Shown here in pieces: positions 1 to 27,127 of a stretch of 64,000 nt of DNA (its first letter is position 1; each line of letters starts with the position of its first letter). Source of the DNA: Salinadaptatus halalkaliphilus (GTDB lineage Archaea; Halobacteriota; Halobacteria; Halobacteriales; Natrialbaceae); NCBI RefSeq assembly GCF_006543045.1, contig NZ_RBZW01000021.1:124001-188000 (forward strand). The letters run 5' to 3'. The notes under the pieces are model-generated. The model made no database searches. It was not told the origin of the DNA and saw nothing but the letters and a program-made list of their open reading frames with translations. Position numbers and translations under genes: made by a program.

Positions 1-1841
1 GTCGACAGCGAGAGGGCACGCCACAGTGCACGCGCGTCACGACTCGAGGGATCGGCGTCGAACCGTTCGTACGCCACCCGGAGTTCGTCGGCGTCTAGAT
101 AGCGTGCCAGCGGCCCGGGGTCGGCGACAAGGTCCTGCAATCGGTCGTCTTCGAGTGCCAGCGCGTTCCAAAAGGCTTCGTCCATCATCGTTTTCCAGGG
201 GCGCGTTCGAATCGGCTCGGGTAACAGATCCTCGAGCGAGCGTCGAACGATCGCCCGCGTCCAGCCGTCGGCGAACTGCTGGGTTGGCGCCATCGCGAGC
301 GAAAACTCGAGCAGTCGCTTGTCCGCGAACGGAGACCGCGGTTCGATACCGACCGCACCGTAACGCAGATCGATCGTCTCGAAGTTCGCGGCGTGGCGCC
401 CCGAGGAAAGGGAGTAATACTGGCGCAGCCGATCGGTGCTCGAGACCCGAACCGAATCGGGCCCGGACAGCCGTTTGTATCGCGATCGAAGATCGATCCG
501 GTCGACGAAGTCGGGATCGAGCGTCGGATTTGCGTTGGCTTCCAGTATCGGACGGCCACGCCGGTTGCGGTAGTGGCGACGGACCGATTCGGGAACCAAC
601 GGTAAGAGGGCGTGACGGACGAACAGGTGGTGTGGCGGCGTTTGGAACACCTCCCCCATCGCACGGAGTTCCAGCCACATGTGTCGCCAGCGCCCAGTTC
701 GAAACAGTTGCGGGATCACGCCCAACCCGTAGTTCGACGCACTGTCACCGAAGACGCCGTTGAGCACGACGTCGACGCCGGCCTCGGCCGCACGGTTCGA
801 CTGTTCCCACACCGAAAAGTGCAGCGTGTTGTGTGGCGGTTTGTCGTAGTAGGACAGATACGTCGACGCGTCGGCCAGCGAGCCACGGCGATCCAGGGTG
901 ACGTAGTGGGGGACGATGCCGTCTCGTTGGGTCACCAACTGGATGTACTCACGCTCGTCGCTCGAGGGGGCGTCGTCGTAGACGTTCGAGAACGTCTGTA
1001 GCGGTTGCTCTGCGGGCAACAGCTCCCGTGCGAGTACCGTCACCGCCGACGAATCGAGACCGCCGCTGAGTTCGGCCCCGACCTCGCCGGCGGTGCGGAG
1101 CCGACACCGAACCGCCTGCTCGAGCAGGTCGCGAAACCGTCGCTCGTAGGCCCCATCCGACGCGAGCGTGATCGTCCGTGAGGGGTCGAGTGACCAGTAC
1201 TGCCACTGCTCGACGCCATCGGCATCGACGGTCATGGCGTGGGCCGGCGGAAGTCGGGTAATCGATTCGTAGAACGAAAGCCGCTCGTCCTCGAGTCGCC
1301 CCGTCAAAAAGTCGCCGACCTTCCGTTCGTCGAGCGTGTCGTCGACGGTCGGCAGCGCCAACAGTCCTTTGAGCTCCGTACTGAACGCAAACGTCGTGGC
1401 GCTTCGGTGATAGTAGATGGGCTTGACGCCGACGTGGTCGCGGGCACAGAACAGCTGTCGACGGTCGGCATCCCAGATAGCGAACGCGAACGCGCCGACC
1501 AGCCGGTCGACACATTGGGGTCCCCACCGGCGGTACGCCGAACACAGCAGCTTACAGTCGGGAACCTGCGACGATGCGTTCGTAATTGACAGCGTCTCGA
1601 CCAACTCGGAGCGGTTGTCGAGACGAACGTCTGCAGTGACGATCAGGCCGTCGTCGTCGTACGGTTGTGTCGTCGCCTGCGGTGTCGCTGCCAACAACTG
1701 GTGACCGAATCCGACGCGCTCGTCACACCACTGCCCGCTCCCATCCGGCCCACGGTGTGCGAGCGACTCGAGCATCGATTCGACATCGACGGGGCCGACG
1801 GCCCCACCCGCCCGGTCGAAGACGCCGACGATACCGCTCAT
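1..1841 (-). CDS. Asparagine-synthetase-like lasso peptide cyclase, C-terminus cut by window edge
   Basis: About 613 residues are visible and the frame stays open to base 1. The N-terminal half is a class II glutaminase-like fold; the C-terminal half is an ATP-pyrophosphatase domain with the SGGLDSS loop at about residues 259-265. The protein begins MSGIVGV where true glutamine-dependent asparagine synthetases begin MCG, so the nucleophilic Cys2 is Ser and ammonia release from glutamine is not expected. This pattern and the neighbours (B2 peptidase and PqqD-like protein upstream in the same operon) fit the ATP-dependent macrolactam cyclase of lasso peptide synthesis. The ATG overlaps the upstream stop by four bases (ATGA), implying coupled translation. 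Alternative: an AsnB-type enzyme acting on another peptide or glycan. Confidence 0.82.
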   Translation of the reverse strand, partial: MSGIVGVFDRAGGAVGPVDVESMLESLAHRGPDGSGQWCDERVGFGHQLLAATPQATTQPYDDDGLIVTADVRLDNRSELVETLSITNASSQVPDCKLLCSAYRRWGPQCVDRLVGAFAFAIWDADRRQLFCARDHVGVKPIYYHRSATTFAFSTELKGLLALPTVDDTLDERKVGDFLTGRLEDERLSFYESITRLPPAHAMTVDADGVEQWQYWSLDPSRTITLASDGAYERRFRDLLEQAVRCRLRTAGEVGAELSGGLDSSAVTVLARELLPAEQPLQTFSNVYDDAPSSDEREYIQLVTQRDGIVPHYVTLDRRGSLADASTYLSYYDKPPHNTLHFSVWEQSNRAAEAGVDVVLNGVFGDSASNYGLGVIPQLFRTGRWRHMWLELRAMGEVFQTPPHHLFVRHALLPLVPESVRRHYRNRRGRPILEANANPTLDPDFVDRIDLRSRYKRLSGPDSVRVSSTDRLRQYYSLSSGRHAANFETIDLRYGAVGIEPRSPFADKRLLEFSLAMAPTQQFADGWTRAIVRRSLEDLLPEPIRTRPWKTMMDEAFWNALALEDDRLQDLVADPGPLARYLDADELRVAYERFDADPSSRDARALWRALSLS

Positions 1842-2308
1842 GGCCCGCCAATTTCGTCAAGCGGTGGCAGCGGTTCGAACCGCGAAAGGTCCTCGAGGTG
1901 TCCGATAAGAACCGACCCATCGTACTCGATCCAGCTGTGGGCTTGGAAACAGCCGCTCCCAGCTGCTGTGTCGTTTCCGTCGCTGGCCGTGTCGACGCCG
2001 ATTCGATGAACGACCGCGTGATCGTACAGTCGGTGCATCGTCTCCGCTGTCAGCGACCGCATCAGACAGGTTCGATGGCCGGGGCAGTTTCGATCGGCGG
2101 CATCGACGGTCCACGCAATGCGAACGGGAGCAGGCGAGCCGGGAACGATCCGGGCGAGCGTCGTCGCCGGGGCCAACAACAATCGTCGAAACGTCGAAAA
2201 CGGCACGACGAAGACGCCGATGCGGACGACGACCAGCAACGTCGCTGCGAGCACGAGCCGTAGCTTGTCCCCGGCCGGAACCGACAGAAATCCGGATATG
2301 CGACCCAT
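1838..2308 (-). CDS. Lasso peptide biosynthesis B2-type leader peptidase
   Basis: 156 residues, the normal size for stand-alone B2 proteins (transglutaminase-like cysteine protease fold). A hydrophobic stretch lies at residues 14-38. The catalytic pattern is visible: Cys81 in TCLMRSL and His124 in QAHSWIEYDG, followed by an acidic residue near the end. In the family this protein removes the leader peptide before cyclisation. The ATG at 2308 was chosen because it gives the family length and lies just after the upstream PqqD-like stop (2319); an upstream start at 2380 would add a non-family N-terminus overlapping that gene. It overlaps the cyclase gene by 4 bp. Confidence 0.85.
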   Translation of the reverse strand: MGRISGFLSVPAGDKLRLVLAATLLVVVRIGVFVVPFSTFRRLLLAPATTLARIVPGSPAPVRIAWTVDAADRNCPGHRTCLMRSLTAETMHRLYDHAVVHRIGVDTASDGNDTAAGSGCFQAHSWIEYDGSVLIGHLEDLSRFEPLPPLDEIGGP

Positions 2309-2318
2309 CGGTCGTCCG

Positions 2319-2636
2319 TTAGTCGCCCCCCTGAGTGTCAGGGTCGGTCTCGACAAGATCGGCTGTTGCCATCTCGGCAACCGTCGACTCGACGTCCTGA
2401 CGGCACTGGTCGGGAGAGACGTCGTACTCCGCCAGTATCGTCTCGGTGATCTCCCCGACTGTTCGTGGCTCCTGAAGCAACTCCCAGATTCTGGAAGCGA
2501 CCTCGTTGAACCCGTAGTAGGTCCCCGATTCGACCTGAAGCGTTACCGCCTCGCCATCGATCGTCGTCGACAGCTGATCGTCGGTCGCAACGACTGTCGT
2601 CGACGCCGAAATCCAACCCTCACCACGTTCGGACAT
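2319..2636 (-). CDS. PqqD-family peptide recognition protein (lasso B1-type)
   Basis: 105 residues. The core has the PqqD/RRE pattern: an N-terminal beta region (residues 20-40, with YYGFNEVASRIWELL typical of the family) and a C-terminal helical part where the acidic DQCRQDVESTVAEM segment leads to a final strand. PqqD-like RRE proteins bind the leader peptide and present it to the maturation enzymes. It is the first gene of the three-gene operon and appears leaderless, with a TATA-like box at 2661-2667 about 27 bp upstream. No precursor peptide gene lies between it and the divergent gene at 2766. Confidence 0.85.
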   Translation of the reverse strand: MSERGEGWISASTTVVATDDQLSTTIDGEAVTLQVESGTYYGFNEVASRIWELLQEPRTVGEITETILAEYDVSPDQCRQDVESTVAEMATADLVETDPDTQGGD

Positions 2637-2765
2637 CGGCCATTAATTACGCTTCAAACAATATAAATCTAGCCCTATAAATTAACGAACTATTCGGGCA
2701 GTAGACGGAGGACGGATACTGTCTCGAGCATCCGAACGACATATATCTACCTCCGGCCGTTGTGA
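2637..2765. promoter_or_regulatory. Divergent promoter region between PqqD operon and membrane gene
   Basis: A 129-bp AT-rich spacer. On the minus strand TTTATAT (2661-2667) lies about 27 bp before the PqqD start. On the plus strand CATATATC (2740-2747) lies about 23 bp before the ATG at 2766. Both fit haloarchaeal TATA boxes for leaderless mRNAs. No reading frame long enough for a lasso precursor is present on either strand. Confidence 0.55.
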
Positions 2766-3188
2766 ATGGAAATGGCACGGCCAATCGGTGCGTATTCGAG
2801 AGCACTCACACTCGCCCTTGGGACGGTGACACTCGCTAGTCTACCGATCTGGTACGGCTCGGGCGTGCCCGGTCTGGCCGAGTTAGCCGTCGATCGGCCA
2901 CCGACGTGGTCGACGGCTATCCTCGATGGAATCGTCCCCCTGGCCGAGCGGACGGCGTCACGCGAGCGGTGGGAACTGTACTATATGTACGGTGTGTCGG
3001 TGACCGGCGTGGTCTGGACGGTCGGTCGCGTTTTCCAGGGGTGGCGGTTCGACCGCGAACAGCTCACGTTCGTCCCGCGGACGCGCCACCGGACGGTACG
3101 TGCGGTGTGGCAAGACGCGAGGGCACCATCGGCATCCGAGCGCGAGTCCGACCGGGAGCGCTACGTCGATAGAACGGACGATGGCTGA
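2766..3188 (+). CDS. Small membrane protein of unknown function
   Basis: 140 residues; I do not recognise the family. A hydrophobic N-terminal segment (about residues 10-32) is followed by a second near residues 72-92, then an Arg/Glu-rich cytoplasmic-type tail. The gene starts leaderless after a TATA box and its end overlaps the next gene by 8 bp, so the two are probably co-transcribed. An ATG at 2772 is an equally good start. The divergent position next to the lasso operon makes a role in export or immunity possible, but nothing in the sequence shows this. Confidence 0.6.
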   Translation: MEMARPIGAYSRALTLALGTVTLASLPIWYGSGVPGLAELAVDRPPTWSTAILDGIVPLAERTASRERWELYYMYGVSVTGVVWTVGRVFQGWRFDREQLTFVPRTRHRTVRAVWQDARAPSASERESDRERYVDRTDDG

Positions 3189-3705
3189 CGTACTGACACA
3201 CGTGTTGGCAGGGTACATCATCGGGTCGGTGCTAGCGCTATCGGTCGATCGAATCAAGACCGCCCACGTGACGGTCGTGATGGTCGGTGCCGTCGTGCCG
3301 GATCTCGCGAAGATCGATCTCGTGCTCTCGGAGACGACAGTCGCGGCGACACTCGGGATCCCCTGGAACTGGACCGCACTACACACTCTCGGCGGGTCGA
3401 TCGTGATGGCAGGACTCTGTGCGCTGGTCGTTGATCGCCGACACCGACTGCTCGTGTTCGGCCTGTTTCTGGTCGGCGCCCTCTCCCATCACGTCCTCGA
3501 TCTGCTGTTGCTAACGTGGGACGGACGAGCCTACCCCGTTCTCTGGCCGCTGACGGGGTATCGACCACCATCCGGGGGGCTCTATATGAGCAGCGATCGC
3601 TGGCCGTTGCTCCTCGCGACAACGATCGGGACAATCCTGTGGCTGTGTCGCCGACGGTTCGACGCGTCGATGTCGACCGATCCGATCGACCGTCGCGACA
3701 ACTAA
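3181..3705 (+). CDS. Membrane-bound metal-dependent hydrolase (YdjM-like family)
   Basis: 174 residues with four to five hydrophobic segments. The N-terminus MADVLTHVLAGY and the GAVVPDLAKID segment match the PF04307-type membrane 'metal-dependent hydrolase' family, and the second conserved His pair is seen in GALSHHVLDLLL. The substrate is unknown for the whole family. It overlaps the preceding gene by 8 bp. Its TAA stop (3703-3705) is exactly the left target duplication of the palindromic element at 3706-3784, so that element follows the last codon with no spacer. Confidence 0.75.
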   Translation: MADVLTHVLAGYIIGSVLALSVDRIKTAHVTVVMVGAVVPDLAKIDLVLSETTVAATLGIPWNWTALHTLGGSIVMAGLCALVVDRRHRLLVFGLFLVGALSHHVLDLLLLTWDGRAYPVLWPLTGYRPPSGGLYMSSDRWPLLLATTIGTILWLCRRRFDASMSTDPIDRRDN

Positions 3706-3784
3706 TACGGATTGCTGTAACGATTTACCGGCGAAACCGCAGACGGGTCGCGGTTTCGGCGGTAACGACTTACAGTAAACCGTA
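3706..3784 (+). mobile_element. Palindromic MITE-like element, copy 1
   Basis: 79 bp starting TACGG and ending CCGTA, flanked by a TAA duplication (3703-3705 and 3785-3787). The two arms pair over about 30 of 36 positions; the inner stem is GGCG-AAA-CCGC paired with its complement across a 9-nt loop AGACGGGTC. The left TAA is the stop codon of the preceding gene. It differs from copy 8 at a single base. It stands between converging genes. Confidence 0.9.
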
Positions 3785-3787
3785 TAA

Positions 3788-4095
3788 GGGGATCTTCACG
3801 CTTCAACAGCCCGGGTTGTCTTCTCTGAGCGCCTTTCTGAGGGAACGAGCGGGAAGAAGCGCGTCGTTCAGCTTTCCCATGAACAACGTCTGCATGAAGA
3901 CGTTCATCTCGACCGGTGAGCGGAAAGCCGATAGGTCATACCCGGATGTGTTGCACTGGTCTCTATCGGGCTCGTGCTCTCGGCAACGAATCTCATGGGC
4001 CGCGTCGCGGTGCCCGGAATCGGACGGGTCGAGGATCGCCAGCAGGGGACGGCCGAGTAGTGTCGCCGCCCGCGGACCGCCGGGTTCGCTCGCGG
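3788..4095. other. Gap without a confident gene; possible gene relic
   Basis: About 310 bp between two convergent genes. The only protein-like stretch is on the minus strand at 3803-3907: 34 codons from an ATG, beginning MNVFMQTLFMGKLNDALLPA and ending NPGC. The frame is open upstream of that ATG, so it could be the tail of a decayed gene. I do not recognise it and see no promoter. Confidence 0.3.
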
Positions 4096-4815
4096 TCAGT
4101 TCGTCGTCGATTTCGAGGTGTCGTCGGGTTCCGGCGGTGGCTCGACGCCTTCGATCGCTTCGGCGGCGTCGGTATCCTTCTCGACGCCGACGTGCCAGCG
4201 GTCGATCTCGTCGTCGTATTCGGCGAGGCGGTCCGAGACATCCTCTTTGAGCACGTCATCGTTGACGTTGACCTCGAAGACGAACTGTTCGCCGTTCCCG
4301 TTGCGCGCCGACTGCTGGATGTTCGCGCTGACCAGTTCGTTGTCGAAATAGTAGGGTGCGAGTTGGGTCATCACGTTCTGATAGACCGTGTCCTCGACCC
4401 GACGGATCGCCTTGCGACTTGCGGAATCGGCTGCTCGAGTGACGTAATCGATCGACTCCTTCCAGTTGTCGACGGCCGCTTCTGGGTCGTCTTCCTCGAG
4501 TTGTTCGTACGATTCCGAGAGCTTCTCGCCGGCGGTCTTGATGTCTTCGTCGGGCTCCTTGCCGGCCTGCTCGCCCTTTCCCTCCTCGACGCTGGCCTGG
4601 TCGGCAGTCTTCTCGCTGACGTCGGAGTCGAGGGTCTCGTGGGCTTTCGGTCGCCACTCGTCCCACTCCTCGAAGGCGCGGGTGAACCGGGCGTCGGCGG
4701 ATCCGTCGGGGTCGTGGACGCCGGCGTCCCGAAGCGCGCGCGTAATGCGTTCGCCGTGTTCGACGACCTCACTCCAGTCGCCGCGGACCTTGAATCCCGA
4801 GATACTCTCTTCCAT
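4096..4815 (-). CDS. DUF5828 family protein (haloarchaeal)
   Basis: 239 residues, soluble and very acidic. The opening MEESISGFKVRGDWSEVVEH and the overall length are those of the haloarchaeal DUF5828 family, for which no function is known to me. A central low-complexity acidic part (residues about 65-95, rich in Glu/Lys/Asp) joins two helical regions, and the last 25 residues are a Glu/Pro/Thr tail. It stands alone between a convergent gene and the threonine synthase homologue, whose start lies further along the same strand. Confidence 0.75.
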   Translation of the reverse strand: MEESISGFKVRGDWSEVVEHGERITRALRDAGVHDPDGSADARFTRAFEEWDEWRPKAHETLDSDVSEKTADQASVEEGKGEQAGKEPDEDIKTAGEKLSESYEQLEEDDPEAAVDNWKESIDYVTRAADSASRKAIRRVEDTVYQNVMTQLAPYYFDNELVSANIQQSARNGNGEQFVFEVNVNDDVLKEDVSDRLAEYDDEIDRWHVGVEKDTDAAEAIEGVEPPPEPDDTSKSTTN

Positions 4816-4969
4816 TCGGCTGACGCGGTCATAGGAGACGGACCGCCATAAACTTCGTTACTGCACACGTCAGTGAATCGACCAATTCGGCAGTATCATA
4901 CCGATACGTTCTACAGGATCCTCGAGCAGATCCGTGGGATCGGTCAGCAAACGTCGGACATACGGTCGA

Positions 4970-6163
4970 TCAGATACCTTGACTCATCAAGTGGCTGCGT
5001 AATACGTCGGCCTCCTTGGTTCCGGCACCCGTATTGCAGATGACGACCGTCTCGTCGCCGTCGAACGCGCCGCGCTCGGCGAGTTCCCACGCGCCACCTG
5101 CGGCGGCGGCGGCGCTCGGGGTCATCTCAAGGCCTTCGTGCATAGCAACCTGGACGCCGGCCTCGAGGATGTCGGGATCCGCGGTCGCCACTGCACCGCC
5201 GCCGGTCTCGCGAATGGCCTCGAGCACGCGCTCGCCAGCGGGCGGGTCGGAAATCTCGAGCCCGCCACAGATGGTGTCGGGCGTCTCGACCGGCCCGTGG
5301 GCGTCGGCGCCCGATTCGTAAGCCTCGACGATCGGCGCACAACCGGCCGCTTGCGCGGCGTACAACTCCGGTAACTCGTCGATCAGGCCGAGCCGTTCGA
5401 AATCGGTCACAGCGTCGTAGAGGCCGACCAGTCCAAGTCCGGTCCCGGTCGGATAGCAGATCGCGTCCGGCACCGTCCACTCGAGCTGTTCGAGGAGTTC
5501 GTACCCAAGCGTCTTCATCCCCTCGAGACGGTAGGGCGTCGCGAACGGCTGCAGCGAGTACCAGTCGTCGTGTTCGGCCAGTCCCTCCGCGGCGGCGCCG
5601 ACGGCGTCGTCGATCCGGCCGCCGACGACGTTCATGTCGCCGCCGTGGACGTTCACCATTGCCTTGGTCGAAAAGCTCGAGCGCGAGGGGAGATAGACGT
5701 GGGACTCGAGGCCCGCCCGTCCGGCGTATGCGGCGGCAGACTGGCCACCGTCACCCGTCGAGGCCAGTGCGATGTCGGTTGCGTCGTGGCCGGTCGCGGC
5801 CGTCACCGCGACCGAATTGCCTCGATCGGCGACGGAACCGGTCGGATTCTGGCTCTCGTCTTTGATGTAGACGCGTTCGACGCCGAGTTTGTCGGCCAAC
5901 CCGGGACAGTCGACCAGCGGTGTCGCCCCTTCGCCCATCGTCGTCGCCCCCTCGCGAGCGAACGGCAACAACTCCGCGTACCGCCACTGCGAGTCGAACG
6001 AGCGTGCAGCGAGCGTCTCGCGATCGAGATCGATCGCACCGTCGTCGTAGCTCGCCTCGAGCAGTCCGTCACAGTCGGGACACCGGTGTGTCGCCGCGTC
6101 AGCGTCGACCGTCGCCTCGCAGTCGGCACACTCGAGGCCCAGAAAAGCGTCAGTCGTCTCCAT
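4970..6163 (-). CDS. Threonine synthase homologue lacking the PLP lysine
   Basis: 397 residues, fold-type II PLP family. An N-terminal zinc ribbon (LECADC...HRCPDC, residues 8-30) and the family order of motifs are present: DESQNPTGS, the Gly-rich STGDGGQSAAAY loop, and CNTGAGTKE near the end. Authentic threonine synthases read NPTGSFKDR, the Lys forming the Schiff base; here it reads NPTGSVADR, with Val111 and Ala112 encoded by GTC GCC. The expected aldimine lysine is therefore absent and normal catalysis is unlikely unless another Lys takes over. The ATG at 6163 was chosen because it begins exactly at the zinc ribbon. It may be a PLP-less paralogue with a changed role; thrC proper would then lie elsewhere. 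Confidence 0.8.
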   Translation of the reverse strand: METTDAFLGLECADCEATVDADAATHRCPDCDGLLEASYDDGAIDLDRETLAARSFDSQWRYAELLPFAREGATTMGEGATPLVDCPGLADKLGVERVYIKDESQNPTGSVADRGNSVAVTAATGHDATDIALASTGDGGQSAAAYAGRAGLESHVYLPSRSSFSTKAMVNVHGGDMNVVGGRIDDAVGAAAEGLAEHDDWYSLQPFATPYRLEGMKTLGYELLEQLEWTVPDAICYPTGTGLGLVGLYDAVTDFERLGLIDELPELYAAQAAGCAPIVEAYESGADAHGPVETPDTICGGLEISDPPAGERVLEAIRETGGGAVATADPDILEAGVQVAMHEGLEMTPSAAAAAGGAWELAERGAFDGDETVVICNTGAGTKEADVLRSHLMSQGI

Positions 6164-11525: not shown

Positions 11526-14456
11526 GTGAACGTACGCGGGATCGTCGCGGGCGAGATCGAGGAACGAACGGTGTCGACGCAGTACGGCGAGAGCGATCTC
11601 GCCGAGGTACCGCTTCGACTCGCTCGAGACGACCTCGAGGGGGAGACGCGGGGAGAGCGCCTCGCGGACTGGACCGACGGCGCGGACGAATCGGAGAGCG
11701 ATCGAGCCAGCGACGGCACCGACGCGAGCGACGAGCGACGATCCAACGACGACCCACACCCCGATGGCGGCCTCACGCGCGAGCGGGTCGCCGACGGCCA
11801 GGAGACGACGACGGTGACGCTGTGGAACAAGTGGACCGAGTCCGCGGAGTACCTCGAGCCGGGGATGGAACTGCTGGTTACCGAGGCAAAGACCGAACAG
11901 TACCAGGGCGACACCCAGTACGCGACGACGGGTGACTCCTACGTCGTCGTCGAGCCGAGCTTTCTGGTCAACGTGACGGCCATCCGCAACTGGGTGGAGT
12001 GTCCGCGGCTGTACTACCTGAACAAGCTCTCGGGCGTCCCGCTGAACTACCCCGTCGTCAAGGGGACGCTCGTCCACGAGGTCTTTGGCGACCTGCTGCG
12101 CGGGCGCGACATCGAGGAGTCGATCGACGCCCGCGTCGAGGAACGCGGACTCCAACTCGGTCTCCTCGGTGAGACGCCCGAGGCCGTCGCCGAAGACGTC
12201 CGCGAGAACGCGAAAGCGATCGAGGGCTGGCTCGAGCAGGGTCGCCTCACGGAGGAAGATAGCTGGCGCTCGGAACAGCTCTTGATCAGCGAGACCTTCG
12301 GCATCCGCGGGCGAGCCGACGCCATCCGCCGGGGTGGGCCGGTCGAGCTCAAGACGGGCAAAAACCTCAAGAAAGAACCCCGGTTCAAGGACAAGATCCA
12401 GGCGGCCTGCTACGCGCTCGTCCTCGAGGAACACGGCGGCGATGTCGACACGGGGACCCTGCTGTATACGAAGAACTCCGCGCTCGATCGCAACGAGGAG
12501 ACCGGCGATCTGACGCCGGCCAAGGACTTCTCGATGGGGCAGGGTCTGCTCAAATTCGTCGTCCGCAAGCGCAACGAGATCGCAGCGATGGAGGTCCGCG
12601 GCGAGGTGCCGACGGGCTACGAGGGCGACGCCAAGTGCGAGTACTGCTTCGAGCAGGACACCTGCATGGTCGTCTCCGGCCGCCTCGATCAGGCGTCCAA
12701 AGCCGGCCAGATCGGCCAGGCACTTCCCGCCGAGGAACGGGAGTACTTCCAGCGGCTCTACCGAGCTATCGAAGAAGAACGACGCGAAGTCCACCACGAG
12801 TACGCAAAGCTCTGGGAACAGGACGCCCAGGAGCGGGCCGACGACGACCGCGCGCTGATCGACCTCGAGTTCCTCGAGAAACGCGAACTCGAGGAGGGCC
12901 GCTGGGAGCTGCGAGCGCGCCGGACGAGCGCCGCGAACTCGAAGATCCGCGAGGGAGACTTCGTGCTCGCGAGCGACGGACACCCGGTGCGTGGCAACGC
13001 GGAACTCGCGACGATCGAACGGCTGGGCAGCGCGAAGCGTGACTCCGCGGACAGTCCGAGCGGACCGCGTCCACAAGGCGACGAGGTCGTGCTGACCGCG
13101 GACGAGCCGGTCGAGGTGACCCGACTCGACGTCTATCCCTCCGAGCTGACGACCGATCGGCTGCTGGTCGCGGTCCACGACTTCCTGCTGAAGGGCGAGG
13201 AACGCCGGAAAGATGTCCTGTTCGGCCGAGAGGATCCGACCTTCGATCGGCCCGAGGAGACGTTCGTCGACAACAACGACGCCCAGAACGAGGCGGTCCG
13301 GCTGGCGGTCGGCGCGGACGATTTCGCGCTGATCCACGGCCCGCCCGGCACCGGCAAGACCTACACCATCGCCCAGGCGATCCGCGCGATGGTCGAGCGC
13401 GGCGAGCGGGTCCTGCTGTCGGCCTTTACCAACCGCGCCGTCGACAACGCCTTGGAGGCCGTCCTCGAGCACGGCGGTGACGTTCTCGGGGCCGACGGAG
13501 CGTCGGAAACACGACCTGGGGTGGCCGGTGACACCCACGGCGTCGTCCGCGTCGGCTCCGAGAGCGGCGTTCGCGAGGACATGGAACCGTATCGCCTCGA
13601 GCGGGCCGGCGATCCCGCCGAGCGCGTGGCGGAACTCGAGGACGCACAGGTCGTCGCGGCGACGACGGCGACCTGCGGCTCGCGGGTGATGAAAGAGCAG
13701 GGCTTCGACGTCGCGCTGGTCGACGAGGCCGCACAGCTGACCGAGCCGGGAACCTACGCCGCGGCCAATCTGGCCGAGCGGTTCGTTCTCGTCGGCGATC
13801 ACGAGCAGTTGCCGCCGGTCGTCCGCGCCGAAAACGACCTGACGGAGTCGCTGTTCGAGCGCCTTGTCGAGCAGTATCCCGACGCCGGCGTCATGCTCGA
13901 CCGCCAGTACCGGATGAACCAGCGTATCCAGTTTTTCGCCTCCCAGGAGTTCTACGACGGGATGCTCCGGCCCGCCGAACCCGCGGTGGCCGGGCGCACG
14001 CTCGACGACCTCGAGGGAGTCTCTCGGGACCGACTTCCGGAATCGCTTCGGGATCCGGTCTCGTTCGTCGACGTGGCGGGAGACGACGGGCAGTACACCG
14101 ATAGCGAGGAGGCCGCCCGCATCACCGAGTTGATCGACCGCTACGTCGACGCCGGCCTCTCACACGACGATATCGGCGTCATCGCCCCCTTCCGCGCGCA
14201 GGTGTCCGAAATTACGGGCCACGTCCCCGACGCCGTGACCGTCGACACCGTCGATCGGTTCCAGGGCTCGAGCCAGGAACTGATCATCGTCTCCTTTACG
14301 GCGACCGGCTCGCTCGAGGGACCGATCTTCGAGGACTACCGGCGGATCAACGTCGCGCTTACCCGGCCAAAGCGTGCGCTCGTTCTGGTTGGCGACTCGC
14401 AGGCACTCGCATCCGATCCGGTCTACGAACGGTTACTCGAGTGGGCGGGTCGCTGA
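11526..14456 (+). CDS. Dna2-like nuclease-helicase (Cas4-type nuclease plus SF1 helicase)
   Basis: 976 residues from GTG. An OB-like N-terminus is followed by a PD-(D/E)XK nuclease with four Fe-S cysteines: Cys159 in VECPRLYYL and C371, C374, C380 in CEYCFEQDTC; the nuclease core VHEVFGDLL...VELKTGK lies between. The C-terminal half is an SF1 helicase: Walker A GPPGTGKT (605-612), DEAAQ, LVGDHEQLPP, QYRMN, and the final DTVDRFQGSSQE and ALTRPKRAL. This is the layout of Dna2, which trims flaps and DNA ends in replication and repair. An acidic insert at residues 45-85 is a haloarchaeal feature. It stands alone. Confidence 0.88.
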   Translation: MNVRGIVAGEIEERTVSTQYGESDLAEVPLRLARDDLEGETRGERLADWTDGADESESDRASDGTDASDERRSNDDPHPDGGLTRERVADGQETTTVTLWNKWTESAEYLEPGMELLVTEAKTEQYQGDTQYATTGDSYVVVEPSFLVNVTAIRNWVECPRLYYLNKLSGVPLNYPVVKGTLVHEVFGDLLRGRDIEESIDARVEERGLQLGLLGETPEAVAEDVRENAKAIEGWLEQGRLTEEDSWRSEQLLISETFGIRGRADAIRRGGPVELKTGKNLKKEPRFKDKIQAACYALVLEEHGGDVDTGTLLYTKNSALDRNEETGDLTPAKDFSMGQGLLKFVVRKRNEIAAMEVRGEVPTGYEGDAKCEYCFEQDTCMVVSGRLDQASKAGQIGQALPAEEREYFQRLYRAIEEERREVHHEYAKLWEQDAQERADDDRALIDLEFLEKRELEEGRWELRARRTSAANSKIREGDFVLASDGHPVRGNAELATIERLGSAKRDSADSPSGPRPQGDEVVLTADEPVEVTRLDVYPSELTTDRLLVAVHDFLLKGEERRKDVLFGREDPTFDRPEETFVDNNDAQNEAVRLAVGADDFALIHGPPGTGKTYTIAQAIRAMVERGERVLLSAFTNRAVDNALEAVLEHGGDVLGADGASETRPGVAGDTHGVVRVGSESGVREDMEPYRLERAGDPAERVAELEDAQVVAATTATCGSRVMKEQGFDVALVDEAAQLTEPGTYAAANLAERFVLVGDHEQLPPVVRAENDLTESLFERLVEQYPDAGVMLDRQYRMNQRIQFFASQEFYDGMLRPAEPAVAGRTLDDLEGVSRDRLPESLRDPVSFVDVAGDDGQYTDSEEAARITELIDRYVDAGLSHDDIGVIAPFRAQVSEITGHVPDAVTVDTVDRFQGSSQELIIVSFTATGSLEGPIFEDYRRINVALTRPKRALVLVGDSQALASDPVYERLLEWAGR

Positions 14457-25606: not shown

Positions 25607-27127
25607 TTAGTCGTCTGGGAATTCGACGCCCGTGATCTCGAATCGCGCACCGCCGTCGCTGCTCTCCGTGATCGTGAGCTCCCAGCCGTGGGCGTCGGCG
25701 ATTTCGTCGACGATCGCCAGTCCGAGTCCGGTCCCGGTCGGATTGCTCGTCACTCCGGGCTCGAGGATGTCTTCGCGTTTGTCCTCGGGGATGCCCGGCC
25801 CGTCGTCTTCGATCGCGAAGCCGTTCTCGAGGTCGGTGGCGCGGACGGTAACGTCTTTGCCACCGTGATCGATCGCGTTGCCGAGGAAGTTCTCGAGGAC
25901 GTGTTGCAGGCAGTTGCGATCGGCCGCGATGGTGCAGTCGGTATCGACCTCGAGCGTCGCCGCCGTCGGTGCCACCGTCGCCCAGGCGCGTTCGACGGCC
26001 GCCTCGAGTTTGATTGGGGTCTCCGATCTGCGCATGTCACCACCGCGTGCCCACGTCGAGAGTTGGTCGATGATCGTCTCGATCCGGTCGTGGGCGTCTC
26101 GGACATGCTCGAGTTCGGTGAGTTCGTCGTCGATGGTTTCGTCGACGAGTTCGAGATAGCCGGTCGCCGTCGTCAAAGGCGTATGGAGGTCGTGCGTGAC
26201 GAATCGGACGAAGTTGTCGAGTCGCTCGTTCTGGCGTTCGAGTGCCTGTCGGCGTTTGATTCGCTCGATCGCGGTGAGCATCGTGGTCCCGAGTAACTCG
26301 ACGCGATTGCGATCGGTTTCGTCGAACTGGTCGCACTCGGTTGCGACGGCCTGAAAGATGCCCCACTCACCGATGGGAACGGTAAGAGCCGATCTGATCG
26401 TCTCCTTGGCCGGTTTCCCGCGATCGGACTGCCTGGCATCGTCGGTGATCTCCGGGTCTTTCGTCTGAAAGACGTGGCCGGCGACGCCTTCGTCGGTACC
26501 GAACGGGCGGTCGCCGACCTCGACCGGTCCGTGCTCCGAGATGGCGACGATTTCGAAGACATCGTCGTCGCTGGCCGGTGCAGCAAGCGTACACCAGTCG
26601 AATCCGAGGATGGTGACCGCAGTGTCGATCGTGATCTGATAACATTCCTCGATCGAGTGGGCACTGTAGAGGTCGTTCGCCGCGTCGTGGAGTCGCTCGA
26701 GGTCGTGCTCTCGACTCTTGTGTGCGGTGATCTCTCGGATCGTGATCACGTGGGTCTCGGACGAGCTGTCGGGTGTGTCGACACCGGCAGCCTCGAGCCA
26801 CACCGATTCGTCATCGCGGCGTCGAAACTCGATGCGCCGAGAGGCCGCGTCCGGACCGGTGACGAGCGCATCGAACGATCGTCTCACTCGGTCGCGGTCG
26901 ATCGCTGCGACGTACTCGAAGGCTGTGTTCCCGACGAGGTCGGCCGGCGCGACGTCGAGATGCCGTTCGACCGCACCAGTGGCGTACTGGATACGCCCCT
27001 GGTCGTCGAGAACGAGCACGGCATCGGGCAGTCGCTCGAGCAGGCTCGACAGCGCTACCGATGTCTCGGCGTCACTTGCGGGCACCGAGCTGTCCGTGGA
27101 TTTCGAGTGATCGATAGCTGAAGTCAC
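25607..27127 (-). CDS. PAS-GAF sensor histidine kinase
   Basis: 506 residues from the GTG at 27127. PAS domain (about 25-135, LERLPDAVLVLDDQGRIQYA), GAF domain (about 155-300, TVPIGEWGIFQAVA), then HisKA with the phospho-accepting His in FVRFVTHDLHTPLT (about 320) and a HATPase with NAIDHGGKDV, EDDGPGIPED and GTGLGLAIVDEIADAHGW. Soluble, no membrane segments, so it senses an internal signal. No response regulator is adjacent. A TTG at 27193 and a GTG at 27085 are other possible starts. Its stop is the target duplication of element copy 5. Confidence 0.88.
   Translation of the reverse strand: MTSAIDHSKSTDSSVPASDAETSVALSSLLERLPDAVLVLDDQGRIQYATGAVERHLDVAPADLVGNTAFEYVAAIDRDRVRRSFDALVTGPDAASRRIEFRRRDDESVWLEAAGVDTPDSSSETHVITIREITAHKSREHDLERLHDAANDLYSAHSIEECYQITIDTAVTILGFDWCTLAAPASDDDVFEIVAISEHGPVEVGDRPFGTDEGVAGHVFQTKDPEITDDARQSDRGKPAKETIRSALTVPIGEWGIFQAVATECDQFDETDRNRVELLGTTMLTAIERIKRRQALERQNERLDNFVRFVTHDLHTPLTTATGYLELVDETIDDELTELEHVRDAHDRIETIIDQLSTWARGGDMRRSETPIKLEAAVERAWATVAPTAATLEVDTDCTIAADRNCLQHVLENFLGNAIDHGGKDVTVRATDLENGFAIEDDGPGIPEDKREDILEPGVTSNPTGTGLGLAIVDEIADAHGWELTITESSDGGARFEITGVEFPDD

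Follow-up and report, generated by a model that had tools for sequence, protein, structure and literature searches.

A probable lasso-peptide-type gene cluster of a haloarchaeon pairs two cyclases with precursors of two types, one with a constant Lys-Asp spacing

Introduction

The closest described systems are gene clusters of the paeninodin/pseudomycoidin type, which combine separate B1 and B2 proteins, an AsnB-like cyclase, an HprK-like kinase with the residues His-Lys-Asp-Asp, a nucleotidyltransferase, an ABC exporter and a YxxP leader (PMC9266682). Similar kinases and nucleotidyltransferases of Bacillota act on lasso precursors by phosphorylation and further modification (PMC9266682). The cluster described here has the same components but is archaeal, contains a second cyclase and three precursors that fall into two types, and differs in precursor sequence: none of its precursors ends in Ser, and two of them, A2 and A3, start with Asn and carry Lys-x5-Asp.

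Archaeal lassopeptide clusters have been given as predictions (PMC12144867; PMC10093198), and in the literature that we searched we found predicted clusters only and no archaeal lasso peptide reported as isolated. The cluster on plasmid pHALXA01 of Halopiger xanaduensis SH-6 has already been named a lasso cluster (PMC10093198). It shares the B1, B2, cyclase order with the present locus, its cyclase being 56% identical to C2, but it has one cyclase and its A2-type precursor is missing from the gene table. That precursor (QVNKEGVASDQWSENTPLLGSIQPAPT core) lies between two annotated genes, at ~13636-13803 of our locus L212 (NC_015658.1 ~25635-25802).

Two other peptide classes share parts of this machinery or chemistry. 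Linear polyphosphorylated peptides of Bacillota resemble the present system in their RRE, HprK-like kinase, nucleotidyltransferase and MsbA-like exporter, sometimes encoded beside lasso genes, but they involve a signal peptidase and no cyclase (PMC13381572), whereas the present cluster has B2 and two cyclases. No signal peptidase was found among the scanned genes. Some graspetides carry Lys-Asp/Glu side-chain amides, the type of linkage proposed below for C2. Graspetides are made by ATP-grasp ligases, whereas the present cluster has lasso-type cyclases, and no ATP-grasp ligase was found among the scanned proteins.

In the passages of reviews that deal with the lasso ring, the N-terminal amine is joined to Asp or Glu across 7–9 residues, and those passages do not describe closure through Lys (PMC8498205). 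Our search of freely available papers likewise found no Lys-closed lasso peptides.

Results

The window, a stretch of 64,000 nucleotides (G000:C28:124001-188000; window base 1 is C28 124001) in a 4.5-Mb haloarchaeal genome of the Natrialbaceae group, begins inside what is very probably a complete lasso-peptide-type gene cluster with three precursors, cut by the window edge. Three adjacent minus-strand genes lie at this edge. B1 (positions 2319..2636; 105 aa) is a PqqD-like leader-recognition protein (RRE) that scores 74.7 bits against PF05402 (PqqD/RRE) in the family scan (cut-off 23.4) and 69.7 bits against NF033536, under the cut-off of 80, and that matches the solved lasso RRE TbiB1 (5V1U/5V1V) with an E of 1e-12. 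B2 (1838..2308, with its ATG at 2308; 156 aa) is a transglutaminase-like leader peptidase (NF033537, 87 bits, cut-off 33) in which Cys81 and His124 are invariant across 31 haloarchaeal B2 proteins. Its end overlaps by 4 bases the start of C2 (1..1841), a lasso-type cyclase whose 3′ end extends 58 bases past the window edge (complete gene at G000:C28:123943-125841). The full-length protein of 632 aa scores 602.6 bits against NF033535 (cut-off 525); Ser2 replaces the glutaminase Cys2, and the ATP motif SGGLDS is retained.

A first-pass annotation of the window had named these genes as PqqD-like, B2 and cyclase, and all three identities stand above the cut-offs of PF05402, NF033537 and NF033535, respectively; it had also numbered the B2 cysteine and histidine correctly and noted the Ser in place of Cys2. 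Its lasso-type reading of the three genes is borne out by the family models, the TbiB1 match and the placement of C2 in the lasso clade of cyclases. Its description of them as a minimal lasso maturation set does not hold, since the locus adds to them a second cyclase, a pair of kinases, a nucleotidyltransferase and an exporter.

The additional genes lie to the left of base 1. From left to right, the plus strand carries the nucleotidyltransferase (C28:116053-117264), the ABC exporter (C28:117261-119087), a second cyclase C1 (C28:119095-120978; 562 bits, cut-off 525), the precursor A1 (C28:121027-121158) and two HprK-like kinases, K1 (C28:121213-122136) and K2 (C28:122234-123154), followed on the minus strand by the precursors A3 (C28:123488-123646) and A2 (C28:123728-123886), C2, B2 and B1, and then by a divergent pair of membrane protein genes. 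The His-Lys-Asp-Asp residues of the kinases are invariant in 35 sequences, and lasso kinases have been described with these same residues (PMC9266682).

The membrane pair consists of a protein without Pfam match, divergent to B1 (2766..3188, plus strand), and a YdjM/DUF457 protein (3181..3705, plus strand; PF04307). In most of the family's clusters the pair adjoins B1 in divergent orientation, and the first protein, a frequent B1 neighbor in relatives, may have a role in the cluster. YdjM homologues, however, occur in 97/125 family genomes, mostly without a cluster, so that the YdjM/DUF457 gene is probably only a neighbor. The earlier suggestion that the membrane genes are the partner of the enzymes is correspondingly weak, and with precursors at hand and YdjM so common there is no need to assume a dedicated partner of this kind.

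Precursors are indeed missing from the window, as the first-pass annotation had stated, but the set itself does not lack them: the absence is an edge effect, and the alternative that the precursor lies beyond base 1 proved correct, with all three in the left flank. Divided at the expected leader cut, A2 reads MSDSTSRSYERPTVTTYGTVESLTQ and NDKIGNSEDTVTEAAADVGVSITGSIV, A3 MSDRTSPRYERPEVTTYGTVESLTQ and NDKVGDSEDTVTEATAAVGTPITGSIV, and A1 MSEYEIPAIVELGAVEELTE and GQHFSRVDGNSGTTGNRGHRRGT. A2 and A3 directly follow C2, 114–512 bases left of base 1 and after spacers of 56 and 81 bases; A1 follows C1, ~2.9 kb left of base 1. A strict leader pattern finds exactly A1, A2 and A3 in 80 kb and nothing in 60 Markov resamples. 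In the whole-genome search with a precursor model that had been advised, the three are the best matches to the lasso-leader model NF033521, A1 alone passing its cut-off (24.3 bits, cut-off 19), with A2 just under it (17.2 bits) and A3 also under. Comparison with homologues gave pS of 0.49–0.69 and pN of 0.05–0.26 over the compared pairs, and by these values all three precursors are under purifying selection.

The leader of A1 has Y(-17), P(-14) and T(-2), followed by Gly1 and, as core acid, Asp8; the spacing found here is that reported for lasso precursors, with Tyr(-17), Pro(-14), hydrophobic(-12) and Thr(-2) (PMC10368454). The cores of A2 and A3 begin with Asn and contain Lys3, Glu8 and Asp9, hence a Lys-x5-Asp motif. 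Among characterized lasso peptides, Asn is unusual as core residue 1. The Gly/Ala-Cys core and the TxxxG-type leader end that had been anticipated fit none of the three. A1 ends in Thr and A2 and A3 end in Val, and the terminal Ser that serves as phosphate acceptor in the paeninodin type is not present. A core of A2 starting at a later Gly (GNSEDTVTE, with a ring to its Glu) was considered and rejected; the spacing of the leader residues places the cut at Asn26, and this Glu is not conserved in relatives. An AT-rich stretch ~25–35 bases before the ATG of A2 (AAATTTTATAC) and of A3 (AAAATTTTATATC) could be a candidate promoter in each case.

B2 was found in 33/392 Halobacteria genomes, and named relatives include Natrarchaeobius, Natronoglomus, Natronobiforma, Halosimplex, Halorientalis, Halapricum, Haloplanus and Halopiger; plasmid searches added few extra cyclases. 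The order nucleotidyltransferase-exporter-K2 // A2-C2-B2-B1 is repeated in other Natrialbaceae. The C1-A1-K1 block is present in the same 3/125 family genomes (G000, G346, G104) whether A1 or C1 is used as the query, and the C1 homologues there have 57–65% identity. C1 is paired with A1, and C2 with precursors of the A2 type.

A further set of clusters from other haloarchaeal families (L051, L054, L060, L061, L063-L072, L075) contains B1, B2, a kinase, a nucleotidyltransferase and mostly an exporter, with no cyclase nearby. Those genomes of this set that were searched have no cyclase above the lasso cut-off, and three of them had no match at all. Their cores are short, for example YETPSVETYGTVEEKTN followed by WWDHDDGYGKWS. 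These clusters may make linear modified peptides, which would parallel the linear polyphosphorylated peptides of Bacillota.

An unexpected pattern emerged in the spacing of Lys and Asp. Of 126 precursors that are linked to a cyclase and carry Thr(-2), 104 have an acid at core position 7–9 and 22 do not, and 20 of these 22 have a Lys and, exactly six residues later, an Asp (+6). Shuffled cores contain a mean of 1.9 such cases and reached 20 in 0/20,000 trials; the next-best Lys-Asp offset is found in 6/22, and none is comparably enriched. A2-type precursors have a fixed leader, and their acceptor Asp lies 9–13 residues past the expected cut with the Lys-to-Asp distance constant at +6. The 29 haloarchaeal C2-type precursors, a set selected for this spacing, have Lys at core 3 to 7 and Asp at 9 to 13, the longer-spaced one of Halosimplex salinum (L088) having Lys7 and Asp13. 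Outside the A1 group, the only haloarchaeal cyclase-linked precursors without it are the second of L058, that of L073 and the one of L192, of which the first two fit neither type. The spacing also occurs in methanogens, Chloroflexi, Acidobacteria and cyanobacteria. Sequences that are related do not count as independent events, but the number of separate groups with the spacing is at least five. A methanogen cluster that came to light later (L185) has three precursors, all with Lys-Asp +6.

The 104 precursors with an acid at 7–9 (L092-L159, cyanobacteria and others) have Gly1 in only eight cases, Ile, Ala and Val being commonest, and Asp9 is by far their commonest acceptor. The shortest-spaced precursors of the Lys-Asp group are those of L093 and L149, whose cores begin with Lys and have Asp7 (KRGRGQD, KVIGFGD), for which ordinary 7-residue closure is also possible.

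Precursor type follows cyclase phylogeny. Haloarchaeal C1 and C2 group with cyclases of lasso clusters from cyanobacteria, Chloroflexi, Gemmatimonadota and others, and ordinary asparagine-synthase-like proteins fall apart from this grouping; the possibility raised earlier that C2 would cluster with non-lasso proteins was not borne out. C1 and C2 form two separate clades, and C2 tracks A2-type precursors. Mapping of precursor type onto the tree takes 6 changes, compared with 23.3 when labels are shuffled, and the cyclases of the Lys-Asp cyanobacteria L134, L149 and L159 fall with same-type Chloroflexi, not with other cyanobacteria. A residue search found no cyclase residue that cleanly separates the two precursor types.

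Discussion

The locus belongs to a known lasso kind, its C2 half representing a Lys-Asp spacing variant, and is not an orphan set. In the scheme that we propose, B1 would bind the YxxPx[V/I] leader and B2 would cut two residues behind the conserved Thr, a single B1 and a single B2 serving all three precursors. C1 would close A1 by the ordinary route, from the Gly1 amine to Asp8, and C2 would activate an acid in A2 and A3, most likely Asp9, at which the ring would be closed; the products would then presumably be threaded. The HprK-like kinases, together with the nucleotidyltransferase, probably modify the peptides with phosphate or further groups; export of the product would fall to the ABC protein.

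For the ring made by C2, we tentatively propose that the amine used by C2-type cyclases is not the N-terminal one but the epsilon-amine of the invariant Lys, which stands six residues ahead of the Asp. This proposal draws on spacing, not chemistry. A ring from the Lys side chain to Asp(+6) has by computation always 26 atoms, as has Gly1-Glu8, and Gly1-Asp8 and Gly1-Asp9 rings have 25 and 28 atoms; with the cut at its normal place, closure from the N-terminal amine would give rings of 28 to 40 atoms. The Lys-Asp side-chain ring could, at a similarly cautious level, characterize a branch comprising 22/22 sampled haloarchaeal C2-clade cyclases and scattered bacterial and methanogen lineages, leaving as many as six N-terminal residues as a free overhang, and with one archaeon carrying both types and a shared peptidase.

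The strongest competing explanation, a genuine possibility though short of probable, is that C2 joins the Asn1 amine of A2 and A3 to Asp9 or Glu8 in a 9- or 8-residue ring and that Lys3 has another role. Lys3, Glu8 and Asp9 are all present in A2 and A3, so that these two precursors fit both readings. Asp9 and Glu8 fall inside the known 7–9 range (PMC8498205), and bacterial relatives with an acid at 8 or 9 begin with many non-Gly residues. However, Glu8 is not conserved, and in relatives with close C2 homologues the Asp lies 10–13 residues past the cut, implying rings of 31–40 atoms, while the Lys-Asp distance is fixed.

An improbable alternative is that the leader of C2-type precursors is cut further on, before [Asn/Asp/Glu]-Lys or before Lys itself, with the N-terminal amine joined to Asp in an 8- or 7-residue ring. 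Conservation of [N/D/E]-K in the 29 haloarchaeal precursors would suit such a cut, as would L093 and L149, where Lys is residue 1 at the normal register. Yet T(-2) and Q/E(-1) are conserved, the second and third residues ahead of Lys vary, and the residue directly before Lys varies outside haloarchaea. Moreover, the only B2 found in each of G346, G080 and G275 faces precursors with differing Thr-Lys distances, at all of which it would have to cut. The invariant Thr(-2), the variable pre-cut residues and this single peptidase together disfavor a shifted cut.

Finally, the DNA on the far side of the nucleotidyltransferase, to the left of the cluster, holds genes for a glycosyltransferase, a flippase and an epimerase, but the idea that C1 and C2 are amidotransferases of these glycan-synthesis genes and the small frames unrelated is extremely improbable and was rejected on model scores and tree position, since both exceed the lasso-cyclase cut-off and fall in one clade with bacterial lasso cyclases, B1 and B2 adjoin, and leader-bearing precursors are present. 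Glycan genes without a small precursor had been named as evidence against a lasso cluster; here both are found. The glycan locus (L004) also encodes two proteins without Pfam match, of 240 and 592 aa (2523-3245 and 3260-5038).

The locus provides three defined precursors together with their enzymes, and its two cyclases with one shared B2 amount to a built-in control. If C2 uses Lys as proposed, the definition of the lasso ring as a bond from the N-terminal amine to an acid would have to be broadened, and such precursors would escape tools that seek an acid at positions 7–9.
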